Part shown: positions 29,055 to 52,970 of the stretch, piece by piece
Layout: every line of letters starts with the position of its first letter
How positions within the stretch are numbered: the stretch's first letter is position 1
Source of the DNA: Glycocaulis profundi
Lineage (GTDB): Bacteria; Pseudomonadota; Alphaproteobacteria; Caulobacterales; Maricaulaceae
Length of the DNA stretch: 64,000 nucleotides
Direction of reading: 5' to 3'
NCBI GenBank assembly: GCA_007050995.1
Contig: VJOU01000006.1
Coordinates: 1-64,000, forward strand
Notes under the pieces: generated by a model
What the model was told of the DNA's origin: nothing
What the model saw: only the letters and a program-made list of their open reading frames with translations
The model's database searches: none
Made by a program: the position numbers and the translations under genes

Positions 29055-29801
29055 TTAAGGTCCGGTGTCCGGCCCGTTAGTCCGCGATTCAGATTCTGGA
29101 AATTCCGCACCCGCCTTCGCCGCGCTCACCAGCGCGCGGAAGATGCGGCGCATGTCCGCCCGGTGCAGCATCAGTTCAGGGTGGAACTGAACGCCCATCC
29201 GGAAGACCTCGCCGGGCGCCTCGATGCCCTGCACGGCCTTGTATTCGTCGCAGGCGGCGACCTGAAAGTCGTCGGCAACGGCATCGAGCGCCTGCCGGTG
29301 CAGCGAATTCACCCGCACGTGATCGCGACCGAAGATTCCTTGCAGCCGGCCGGGCCTGAGATCGACCGACTTGCGGAACACCATGTAGCCCAGCGGCGTG
29401 GAGGGCAGGCGCTTGAGCCGGTCCTCGTCGAGGATCTGCAGGATGGAGCCGCCGCGCGACACGTTGAGAAGCTGCATGCCCCGGCAGATCGCCAGTATGG
29501 GCTTTTCCAGCCGCCAGAACTCGCGCGCCCAGTCCATCTCCAGCCGGTCCCGGCCCGGATCGTATTCCTTGTCGGGATCCGGCTCCTCTCCGTAATGACT
29601 GGGGTGGACGTTGAACCCGCCCGCGATGACCAGACCGTCGAACGTTCCGGGATGATGGTCGTCCCGGTCGCGGGTCTTCTCGGTCACGCGCACCGCGCGC
29701 CCGCCCGCCAGACGCACGCCCAGCCAGATGCAGGCGAAGACCATCGCGTCGGTCTTCGCCGAGGTGGTCACCGCGATGCGGGGGCGATGGTCAGCCGTCA
29801 A
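29055..29801 (-). CDS. Class I glutamine amidotransferase-like / gamma-glutamyl hydrolase (peptidase C26)
   Basis: 248 residues. PuuD-like class I glutamine amidotransferase fold: GLVIAGGFNVHPSHYGE (binding loop), nucleophile C106 in AICRGMQLLN, and the H207-x-E209 pair in QFHPEL. Stand-alone members hydrolyse gamma-glutamyl amide bonds. It overlaps the ATP-grasp gene upstream by 11 bp, which suggests the two act as a ligase/hydrolase pair or as an amidotransferase supplying ammonia to the ligase. Substrate unknown. The last 20 residues are hydrophilic and variable. Confidence 0.82.
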   Translation of the reverse strand: MTADHRPRIAVTTSAKTDAMVFACIWLGVRLAGGRAVRVTEKTRDRDDHHPGTFDGLVIAGGFNVHPSHYGEEPDPDKEYDPGRDRLEMDWAREFWRLEKPILAICRGMQLLNVSRGGSILQILDEDRLKRLPSTPLGYMVFRKSVDLRPGRLQGIFGRDHVRVNSLHRQALDAVADDFQVAACDEYKAVQGIEAPGEVFRMGVQFHPELMLHRADMRRIFRALVSAAKAGAEFPESESRTNGPDTGP

Positions 29802-31128
29802 ACTTCAGCTCCGGTGGCAGTTCGCCCCGCCGGATCAGCGAGGACAGTACGAACAGAACGCCCAGCATGGCGCCGGGATCGTCCAGCGGGATGAAATCGG
29901 TGGCCGCCTCGTCATGATCCTCCCGGCTTTCGCGGAAGGCCTTGGCGTAGGCGCCCAGCGCCCGCACGTCGAACAGGCTGGTCACGAACCCGCCCAGCGC
30001 GCCCGCGGCGCGCCCGCGTTCGCCGCGCTCCTCGTCCCGGCCCCGCAGCGCGTCCCACGAGCCCGACAGGTTCTGGAAATACTCCTCCTGCTCGGCGATC
30101 TTCTGGCTGGCCGAGAGCAGCGCCAGCAGCGGCACCTTGGACTTGCGCCCGATGGTCACCCGCGGCGGCTCGGTCACCGGATCGCCGACGGCCTGCCGGT
30201 AGAGCAGCCAGGGGAAATCCACCCCGCTGGCGACCGACTGGAACAGGCCCGCCCAATAGCGCGGATTGACCTCGATGAGCTGGGCTGGCGCGTCGTCCTC
30301 GCCGGTCCAGCGATAGTCGATCTCGCACACCCCGTTCCATTTGAGATGCTTCAGCAGCGGCGCCGCGGCCTTCAGGAAAGGCGCGGACTCCACCGTCTCG
30401 CGCAGCACCCCCGCCCCGCTGCGCGGCGGGAAGCCGTGCACCGAGCGATAGGTCATGTGCGCGCGCACCTCGCCGTCCTCGCACAGGGCGCAGAAGCAGA
30501 AGTCCCGGCCGGGCACGGCCTCCTGCAGCAGCGGCCAGTCGTTTTCTGTCTTGGGCGGCTTCTCGTCGATATGGGCCAGCAGCGCCTTCGCGTCGTCATG
30601 CTTGGCGATGCCCCGCCCGCCCACGCCGCGCGCGGGCTTGGTGATGACGGGGAAGGCCAGTTCCCGGGTCGCGGCCTCCACCGCCTCGCGGGTCTTGGGC
30701 GCGAGGGTTTTGGGGAAGGCCACGCCCGCGGCTTCGGCGGCGGCGGGCAGACGGTCCTTGGGCTCGACCTGGGTGATCGAGGCCCAGTCGGGGATGGCGA
30801 GAATGATCTTGCCTTCAAAGCGCGCCGCATGCTCGGCGATCACCGAGGTTTCCTCGAACATCGGCATCAGCACGTAAGGGACCGCGCCCTTGGGCCGGAA
30901 ATGCTCGACCGCCTCGAGCAGGTCCTCGATGAAGGCCTCGGGATCCTCGCGGTGATCGGCGATCAGCCGATGGCCCTTCGAATGCTTGGAGAACTGCAGC
31001 ACCGTCATGTCCACGCTGTCGCAGCCCACCACGTCGATGTCGTGATCGGCCAGCGACTGCGCGGCGGTGAGCGCCATCAGCGAGCGGCTGTAGGTCAGAA
31101 GAACGCGCGGCCGCGCCGGTTTGGGCAT
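29791..31128 (-). CDS. ATP-grasp ligase of unknown substrate
   Basis: 445 residues. N-terminal pre-ATP-grasp Rossmann domain (RVLLTYSRSLMALTAAQSLADH), ATP-grasp region at about 120-320 with PVITKPARGVGGRGIAKHDD as the glycine-rich ATP loop, LLQEAVPGRDFCF, and the metal-binding CEIDYRW ... LIEVNPRYWAG. The carboxy-terminal 110 residues hold a helical region with a possible short hydrophobic stretch (AMLGVLFVLSSLI). CarB-like ATP-grasp enzymes form amide bonds through acyl-phosphates. Coupled by overlap to the C26 gene downstream. No product can be named from sequence. The region to 31261 separates it from a divergent gene. Confidence 0.75.
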   Translation of the reverse strand: MPKPARPRVLLTYSRSLMALTAAQSLADHDIDVVGCDSVDMTVLQFSKHSKGHRLIADHREDPEAFIEDLLEAVEHFRPKGAVPYVLMPMFEETSVIAEHAARFEGKIILAIPDWASITQVEPKDRLPAAAEAAGVAFPKTLAPKTREAVEAATRELAFPVITKPARGVGGRGIAKHDDAKALLAHIDEKPPKTENDWPLLQEAVPGRDFCFCALCEDGEVRAHMTYRSVHGFPPRSGAGVLRETVESAPFLKAAAPLLKHLKWNGVCEIDYRWTGEDDAPAQLIEVNPRYWAGLFQSVASGVDFPWLLYRQAVGDPVTEPPRVTIGRKSKVPLLALLSASQKIAEQEEYFQNLSGSWDALRGRDEERGERGRAAGALGGFVTSLFDVRALGAYAKAFRESREDHDEAATDFIPLDDPGAMLGVLFVLSSLIRRGELPPELKFDG

Positions 31129-31261
31129 GGATCCCCCATATGACGTCCGCCCGCAGGGAATGCGGGAGGTCGGGAGGGAAACGGCGGGAGGGCGGCCGGG
31201 GTTGCACGTTCAGGCACCCCGGGCGAAGCTGCCACTTCCGATTGCGCATCAGGATGCCCTC

Positions 31262-32263
31262 ATGCCGCTGTCCGCGTTCATCGCGACCGTCTTCGCGTTC
31301 GCAGCCGAAAACAGGTCATTGGCCTCCGAGCAGGAGGCAGACATCCGCCCCGGGTATGCTCACGAAGCTGTCCGTGGATGTCTTGACCGTGCGGACGCCA
31401 GCTCACGTCCCTTCGAAGGTCTTGCATGTCTGCACCCTCTGCTGCTGGCCGGGGATCGGCCTGATCTGCCCAAAGCGTCTCGGGAAGTCGTCGCCGAACA
31501 ACTGACTGCAGCTTTGGGCTCCCGCCACTGGGACGTTCAAGACCTGTCGATCTTCCTGCTCGGGCTTGTGGGCGCGCGTGAAGCGATCCCCGAGCTTGAG
31601 CGGATCGCCGCAACACACTGGCACCCGGCGATCCGGGACAAAGCGGCATCCACCGCGGCGGCTCTGGCGGGGCCGTGCGGCCGCACGCAGTCTCACATGA
31701 TGCCAGAGAGCGCGGCGGACCTGCCGCCCGACTGCCCCGCCCTGCCCGAAGCGCCGCACCTGTTCGAGACGGAGCGCCAACCCGCCTGCGAATCCGGGGT
31801 CTGGGAATGGGCCGGGCATGAGTTCCGCGCTTCGATGCCGCCGGACAATGAGCGGCCTTACAATCCCCTGGCGTCGGCGAGAGTGTTTCAGCCAGCGGAT
31901 GGCTGGCTCATGGGCACCTCGACAGGCGAATGGCCGGGCGTTCTGATCTGGGCGCCCACGGGGGGCGAGGCGGTCACGGTGATCGACGGGGCGAACATCT
32001 CGTCCGTCGTCCAGACCGAGGATGGCGTCCTCATCGCGGGCGGCGGCGGGGGCATGGCGCCGCCCTACGGTCATGTTCACCTGCTGACCTGGCACGAGGA
32101 CGCGTGGCGGCCCGAACTGCTGGCCCGTCTGCCCGACGCCGTGGATGGCGCGCGTGTTCTCGGTGACGGGCTTTATGCCGCTTGGAGCCCCCGTTCAGCC
32201 TTCATCTTCTCTGACGAAGCTGTCCTGGGCATGGCTGAGTGCCAGCCCGTCGCAGAGGATTGA
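31262..32263 (+). CDS. Hypothetical protein with HEAT-like repeat and possible beta-propeller-like part
   Basis: 333 residues. The N-terminus (MPLSAFIATVFAFAAENRS) is hydrophobic and could be a signal peptide, though without a basic start. Residues about 75-140 contain one or two HEAT/PBS-lyase-like helices (HWDVQDLSIFLLGLVGAREAIPELERIA). The rest is rich in Trp, Gly and Pro with strands such as GEAVTVIDGANISSVVQTEDGVLIAGGG that resemble propeller blades. Six cysteines (several in pairs at PDCPALPEAP/QPACESG) suggest an exported protein. ATG 31262 has CAGGA seven bases upstream; the frame is open to 31121 without family support. No known family recognised. Composition is a little less GC-rich than neighbours. 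Confidence 0.6.
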   Translation: MPLSAFIATVFAFAAENRSLASEQEADIRPGYAHEAVRGCLDRADASSRPFEGLACLHPLLLAGDRPDLPKASREVVAEQLTAALGSRHWDVQDLSIFLLGLVGAREAIPELERIAATHWHPAIRDKAASTAAALAGPCGRTQSHMMPESAADLPPDCPALPEAPHLFETERQPACESGVWEWAGHEFRASMPPDNERPYNPLASARVFQPADGWLMGTSTGEWPGVLIWAPTGGEAVTVIDGANISSVVQTEDGVLIAGGGGGMAPPYGHVHLLTWHEDAWRPELLARLPDAVDGARVLGDGLYAAWSPRSAFIFSDEAVLGMAECQPVAED

Positions 32264-52842: not shown

Positions 52843-52970
52843 GGCGTCCGTCCTTCAGCGTTGCGAGTCGCGCATGGACGGGACGTAGTCGCCATGGCGG
52901 CATCCGCCATGCGCGCTTTGGAAAAAGCCTTGTGAGGGGAACGCGAAGGACCCCGGCCTGTTCCGGGCCG

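Follow-up and report, generated by a model that had tools for sequence, protein, structure and literature searches.

Results

An overlapping gene pair

The window, meaning the whole 64,000-nucleotide stretch of Glycocaulis profundi DNA that was analysed, carries two adjacent genes on its reverse strand, one for an ATP-grasp protein and one for a protein of the Peptidase C26 family. The features referred to below are as follows.

29791..31128, reverse strand: gene for a predicted ATP-grasp amide ligase (ATG start, 445-aa ORF; Pfam matches)
30637..30639, reverse strand: codon of the putative ATP-binding Lys164 (invariant in 74/74 pairs; role by analogy)
30265..30273, reverse strand: codons of Glu286-Val-Asn288 in the motif IEVNPR (putative metal ligands by analogy with ATP-grasp enzymes)
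29791..29801, reverse strand: 11-bp overlap of the end of the ATP-grasp gene with the start of the C26 gene (ORF coordinates and sequence)
29055..29801, reverse strand: gene for a predicted Peptidase C26 / PuuD-like protein of the class-I glutaminase fold (TTG start, 248 aa; PF07722)
29484..29486, reverse strand: codon of the C26 nucleophile Cys106 in ICRGMQ (invariant in 74/74 pairs)
29175..29183, reverse strand: codons of the C26 triad residues His207-Pro-Glu209, HPE (invariant in 74/74 pairs)
31129..31261, no strand assigned: short interval separating the pair from the divergent gene's likely start (one one-mismatch EcfG match, no exact motif)

The original prediction of an ATP-grasp gene overlapping a C26 gene by 11 bp is borne out by the ORF coordinates and the Pfam matches. 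Starting at the TTG retains the N-terminal RPxIxxT strand, which is conserved in relatives, and a GGAG lies 7 nt upstream, so the overlap is plausible; translational coupling of the two genes through the overlap is likely. The divergent gene (window 31121-32263, forward strand, likely start at ~31262) matched no NCBIfam family and had just a weak HEAT-repeat match of 23.6 bits, below the cut-off of 27.7. Five neighbouring window proteins were scanned, namely motA, an MFS transporter, an MltB-type transglycosylase, a weak HEAT-repeat protein and a methyltransferase/FAD-oxidoreductase, which we take to be MnmC-like. There were no ter genes among these five, for which the earlier statement that no known pathway genes lie close by also holds true.

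The ATP-grasp and C26 proteins

The ATP-grasp protein scored 35.1 bits against PF15632 (ATPgrasp_Ter, cut-off 29.1) and also passed the cut-offs of PF02786 and PF02655. Its best NCBIfam match was PRK06849, a 'hypothetical protein' family, at 60.2 bits (below the cut-off of 406), and all 35 members of a wider ATP-grasp alignment matched both PRK06849 and PF15632 at E 0.001, the comparison with cut-offs covering the first member. Lys164, Glu286, Asn288 and Arg290 were invariant in 74/74 pairs (73 loci plus the window). When the ATP-grasp profile was compared with the PDB, carbamoyl-phosphate synthetases (CPS) were best among the matches listed (62.8 bits), with 2pn1 at 61.4 bits. An AlphaFold model of the window protein (m579a320b9435; pLDDT 85.6, pTM 0.83) aligned with 2pn1 at a TMt of 0.81 (Z 27.5 over 296 residues, rmsd 3.3) and included a helical C-terminal region, from approximately residue 330 to 445, of low confidence. 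As modelled, the fold is CPS/biotin-carboxylase-like; nothing told amide-forming from carboxylating ATP-grasps in the VIA-align rows. Proteins ~27-30% identical to the ATP-grasp protein of the pair are found on plasmids of Natribaculum, Nitratidesulfovibrio and Halorussus; of five records of such plasmid relatives three were inspected, and none of the three lists a C26 gene within 5 kb.

The C26 protein matched PF07722 at 141.6 bits (cut-off 20.5), and its best NCBIfam match was the PuuD equivalog NF008471, at 59.4 bits against a cut-off of 266; neither protein of the pair reached the cut-off of any NCBIfam family listed. The Cys-His-Glu triad of the Peptidase C26 family is present as Cys106, His207 and Glu209, and these residues together with Arg107 were invariant in 74/74 pairs (73 loci plus the window). 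The catalytic residues of both proteins are intact. Among the solved chains closest to the C26 profile were Lin1909 (178 bits), SpuA (151 bits) and PuuD (138 bits), compared with 57.5 bits for the glutaminase of GMP synthase and 27.6 bits for CarA; Lin1909, the closest, is uncharacterised. Fold searches with the C26 part of a modelled fusion protein likewise returned PuuD, SpuA and Lin1909. The C26 protein shares with PuuD and SpuA the fold, the CRGxQ nucleophile motif and the VNSxH and HPE motifs, but differs from PuuD in its score relative to the equivalog cut-off, in having no evident PuuA-like partner and in being paired with or fused to an ATP-grasp protein. The C26 enzymes of known function that we can name are, to our knowledge, gamma-glutamyl hydrolases. 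Lys144 of C26 was considered as a family-specific residue after it had been seen in 10 sequences, and was rejected since it is Lys in just 53/74 pairs and His in 11.

Outside the window, the same genome has a two-gene locus on contig C215 at ~96.8-100.6 kb. One gene is a second C26 gene (L047:11801-12481, reverse strand), whose match to gamma-glutamyl-CDP-amidate hydrolase was 82 bits, below the cut-off of 250. It adjoins a gene for a 1045-aa protein with PEP-utiliser/PPDK domains that exceeded the PRK05849 cut-off (L047:12507-15644, reverse strand). This locus looks like a phosphoramidate-type capsule locus, comparable to that of Campylobacter.

Conservation, fusion and co-occurrence of the pair

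We searched 61 genomes, the organism's own and 60 relatives. ATP-grasp matches at E 0.001 occurred in 53/61, many of them weak and in long CPS-sized frames; the scores show a gap, with 11/61 genomes at 274 bits or more and the next at 54. The C26 profile picked out the same 11 genomes (at least 282 bits, next 134), so that both genes are present in an identical 11/61 genomes and neither reaches a family-level score in the other 50. In nine of the ten non-own genomes with the family the pair is adjacent or fused, and two of the nine carry it as one ORF (699 aa and 717 aa). The tenth, G054, has its ATP-grasp gene at the end of one contig and its C26 gene on another.

Scanning public genome contigs with a 10-row alignment gave 251 confirmed stretches, and the 80 best of these serve here as loci. 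Several of these loci come from the same genomes as members of the 61-genome set (for example L107, L125 and L054), and the two sets are not additive. Among these best 80 of 251, the C26 gene was directly downstream of or fused to the ATP-grasp gene in 73 of the 76 loci with enough sequence; the other four (L109, L113, L124 and L127) lack it because the contig ends. In unfused loci the C26 domain begins between -4 and 214 bp past the ATP-grasp stop. Fusions, all with the ATP-grasp part first, number 13 in the best 80 of 251 and form one clade (SH-aLRT 99 in a quick tree search); one natural fusion is L104 of Ponticaulis koreensis. The distance matrices of the two proteins correlated with r 0.83, a value inflated by shared ancestry, against at most 0.14 in 999 permutations. 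An AlphaFold model of the natural fusion L054 had a pLDDT of 88.4 and a pTM of 0.68, with no inter-domain error given.

Three loci with enough sequence have an ATP-grasp gene and no adjacent C26 gene (L070, L100 and L118, in the best 80 of 251); in L118 there is a weak C26-like stretch ~2.6 kb upstream on the opposite strand. The lone ATP-grasp gene L070:5989-7308 sits on a very long branch, and the Parvularcula NAT21 assembly holds both it and a normal pair (L068). It is possible that the L070 protein is a paralogue freed from its partner.

The neighbourhood survey that the original prediction had proposed found the pairing conserved and the other neighbours varying by lineage. In the window and ten other neighbourhoods, no ORF outside the pair was matched in more than 4 of the 11 sources (ORFs overlapping the pair being set aside), and the recurrent neighbours in the best 80 of 251 loci were lineage-specific. 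Twenty representative recurrent neighbours were scanned; two-component and stress regulators, DUF1501 and a carbohydrate kinase were among them, some matched no family, and each was confined to a few loci. In a Verrucomicrobiota clade (L119-L124) a Peptidase_C92 gene (YiiX/YaeF-type amidase) lies directly upstream of the ATP-grasp gene on the same strand in 6/6 loci, which suggests a three-gene operon with a second amidase; the contig of L124 ends before the C26 gene.

These data bear on the reading in which the two genes simply lie side by side, functionally independent of each other and each encoding an ordinary enzyme. The lack of a third conserved gene and the variation in immediate surroundings between lineages would suit it, but the two genes occur in the same 11/61 genomes, are adjacent or fused in 73/76 loci and are joined in 13 fusions. 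The fusions and the co-occurrence refute this reading in practice, and we regard it as scarcely credible. Chance pairing is ruled out because the pair is conserved across relatives, and a pair peculiar to this strain by the shared 11/61 genomes and the 80 loci from public genomes; with 11/61 genomes and the 13 natural fusions in the best 80 of 251 loci, conservation outside the strain is clear. Neither of the findings that the original prediction named as refuting it was obtained, since the pair is conserved elsewhere and the main catalytic residues are invariant in 74/74 pairs. That the pair forms a functional ATP-grasp/C26 unit is thus well supported by the comparison of sequences; the two proteins are likely to work as one machine, given that their genes overlap, are fused in places and strictly co-occur.

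Distribution and mobility

The best 80 of 251 loci were mostly alphaproteobacterial, with others from Spirochaetota, Planctomycetota and Verrucomicrobiota. The tree labels comprised Pseudomonadota (47), Spirochaetota (11), Planctomycetota (9), Verrucomicrobiota (8), Bdellovibrionota (5, all carrying Micavibrio titles) and the window (1). The window copy clusters with Alkalicaulis/Oceanicaulis loci at 69-70% identity but shares only 37-38% identity with the copies in the four other members of its genus group where the family occurs. This low identity within the genus group suggests exchange of the pair between lineages.

The family is rare, because only 3/385 genomes of a class sample matched (the organism's own, a true member, G305, and one distant relative at 117 bits) and 1/60 of a phylum sample, again its own. 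Inspection of the distant relative's 3957-base locus by eye revealed no C26-like ORF. Copies of the family are also borne on two plasmids typed as conjugative, one from Phenylobacterium zucineum HLK1 and one, pXAUT01, from Xanthobacter autotrophicus. In pXAUT01 (L132:9001-11116) the ATP-grasp match has no gene-table entry, the C26 gene is annotated 'peptidase C26' and the domains lie in different frames. A phage-borne gene was considered and rejected, as a viral contig scan gave 12 pattern matches, none of them a relative; a known anti-phage defence protein was also rejected, PADLOC having no family for either protein. Full-text searches of a PMC library found no paper on the ATP-grasp/C26 pair.

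An apparent link to general stress regulation in relatives

The pair has the general-stress genes phyR and ecfG within ~2-4 kb in Glycocaulis albus, two Oceanicaulis and two further relatives, G001 and G004 (G002 and G005 duplicate two of the named loci) and, separately, in the Ponticaulis group (L060, L101, L102 and L104). L110 (52% identity to EcfG), L085, L070 and L103 have weaker EcfG or PhyR matches close to the pair.

The EcfG motif reported for Sphingomonas melonis is GGAAC-N17-20-GTT (PMC6599016). We used GGAAC-N16/17-CGTT, which fits within it, and searched from 250 bp upstream to 40 bp inside the gene, dividing the best 80 of 251 loci into an alphaproteobacterial-type set that includes Micavibrio (n=52) and the others (n=28). 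Exact motifs were found at 10/52 alphaproteobacterial-type loci (0.67 expected from the same loci) and 0/28 others (0.07 expected); with at most one mismatch the counts were 21/52 (3.83 expected) and 2/28 (1.96 expected). A looser scan of 47 of the 52 loci found the identical ten. At 6/10 exact-motif loci the distance from the end of the -10 box to the start used is 8-33 bp, and the motifs of L050 and L110 are weaker, being 145 and 185 bp away. As a control, the exact motif occurred at 13/277 other genes of these loci (Fisher p 0.00095), of which four are phyR or ecfG, six lie beside them and three are in L053. The ten loci are not independent counts, because they fall in ~5 tree groups (L107/L125/L126; L071/L074/L087; L084/L110; L054; L050).

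The window pair has no exact EcfG motif within 250 bp, just one one-mismatch match; the sole exact match in the window is at 52940-52964, and the phyR homologue of this genome is on another contig. Exact motifs were also not found at the pair in the Ponticaulis group with phyR nearby, nor at the pair on the P. zucineum plasmid. There the pair sits between a trxC, lon and hsp20 group and a second hsp20 gene (the stress-gene island of HLK1, L131:1594-18010); of 14 neighbour genes queried from it, eight recur in L103 and six in L109, two nearly identical Phenylobacterium loci. Promoter motifs and gene order suggest that in some of its alphaproteobacterial relatives the pair is part of the general stress response governed by EcfG. 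The original prediction, which held good as regards the ATP-grasp/C26 unit, had not foreseen this stress link in relatives.

Discussion

The original prediction offered two roles for the pair, a ligase/hydrolase cycle or an ammonia-channelling complex. The functional unit stands, on the fusions and invariant residues, while the evidence on its role points in two directions: the kinship of the C26 protein is with gamma-glutamyl hydrolases, and the fusion and pairing suggest a glutaminase partner. Our first choice, to which we give slightly less than an even chance, is that the pair is a glutamine-dependent amide synthetase in which C26 would release ammonia for the ATP-grasp protein. The pair would be a two-subunit synthetase, single-chain in some relatives. 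C26 would cleave the gamma-amide of glutamine by means of Cys106, His207 and Glu209 and would hand the ammonia to the ATP-grasp subunit; this subunit would bind ATP through Lys164, Glu286 and Asn288, activate a carboxylate as an acyl phosphate and then form the amide. Since the pair apparently falls under EcfG control in some alphaproteobacterial relatives, the amide probably serves to protect against stress or to modify the envelope.

Glutamine amidotransferase-synthetase enzymes are usually built as fusions, for example CAD, GuaA and PyrG, and we place the synthetase reading first because such fusions are common and no conserved intermediate enzyme was found. The strict pairing, the 13 fusions, the r of 0.83 and the invariant residues count for it, as do the CPS as best solved ATP-grasp matches. 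Like the pair, CPS (CarA/CarB) combines an ATP-grasp synthetase with a class-I-fold glutaminase, the two being fused in some organisms, and CPS chains are the top PDB profile matches. The pair, however, has one 445-aa ATP-grasp protein where CPS has two halves, its ligase comes first, and its partner is C26/PuuD-like, with 27.6 bits to CarA. It would be a minimal, single-ATP-grasp counterpart of CPS. A missing CPS was itself rejected as an identity, since this single ATP-grasp protein scored 17.5 bits against TIGR01369, the CPS large subunit (cut-off 1027), and the genome has a separate CarB-sized match in a 1144-aa open frame. Counting against the synthetase reading are the C26 protein's closer resemblance to Lin1909 and the gamma-glutamyl hydrolase type than to glutaminase subunits, the fusion model's pTM of 0.68 without an inter-domain error, and the absence of an adjacent C26 gene in L070, L100 and L118. 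For the stress part, the 10/52 EcfG motifs, the nearby phyR/ecfG genes in two lineages and the Lon/Hsp20 island have to be set against the absence of an exact motif in the window, in the other 42/52 alphaproteobacterial-type loci and in all 28 others.

The kinship of C26 with PuuD and SpuA agrees better with a ligase/hydrolase cycle, in which the ATP-grasp protein would link an amine to a carboxylate, perhaps the gamma-carboxyl of glutamate, and C26 would cleave the same amide, so that opposed activities in one complex would control how much of a stress metabolite is present, much as in glutathionylspermidine/trypanothione synthetase-amidase. We consider this somewhat unlikely. In that enzyme, whose amidase is papain-like where that of the pair is C26, ligase and amidase share one polypeptide, as in the fused pairs; it was absent among the 60 of 130 PDB matches listed for the ATP-grasp profile. 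The stress link would suit a redox-sensitive switch on Cys106, and the second, papain-like amidase (C92) upstream in the six Verrucomicrobiota loci L119-L124 would suit amide turnover. A futile cycle would need regulation, of which there is no sign in the sequence, and the pathways that we know around C26 hydrolases use glutamine-synthetase-like ligases and not ATP-grasp proteins. Trypanothione synthetase-amidase provides a precedent for a bifunctional ligase and amidase (PMC2784880).

Precedents within the C26 family, PuuD and SpuA, also suggest a gamma-glutamyl-protected pathway in the style of PuuA...PuuD, in which the ATP-grasp protein would add glutamate as a protecting or carrier group and C26 would remove it after a middle step whose enzyme is encoded elsewhere. 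The genome has one glutamine-synthetase-like gene (Gln-synt_C, 481-aa frame), which could be GlnA or PuuA. With this single gene there is no evident PuuA partner, so the ATP-grasp protein could replace the ligase; the Puu polyamine pathway itself was rejected, as the PuuD cut-off was missed and the genome has the one GS-like gene. The best 80 of 251 loci showed no conserved middle enzyme in the vicinity of the pair, and fusing the first and last enzymes of a pathway would be odd. The absence of a conserved third enzyme, which ligation followed by hydrolysis would need, counts for the synthetase reading, as does the lack of an evident PuuA partner, and we judge the protected pathway improbable.

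A bolder proposal, which we put forward as unlikely, is that the pair is an undescribed stress enzyme, spread horizontally and fused in one clade, whose ATP-grasp protein and C26 gamma-glutamyl hydrolase would make and unmake one stress metabolite. It would be a self-limiting ligase/hydrolase switch, in which EcfG induction together with oxidation of the C26 cysteine would shift the balance to accumulation. We know of no such use of the ATP-grasp and C26 families.

On comparative evidence, then, the pair is a real, conserved two-gene system whose function we infer and for which the regulatory clue from relatives is new. A regular and sometimes fused ATP-grasp partner means that it would be a new enzyme of one of two kinds, a glutamine-dependent amide synthetase or a ligase/hydrolase switch. 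The stress link offers a direct way in, as the target would be two genes in one operon with a product that metabolomics could find, and cultured species, for example of Glycocaulis, Hyphomonas, Ponticaulis and Rhodospira, carry the pair.
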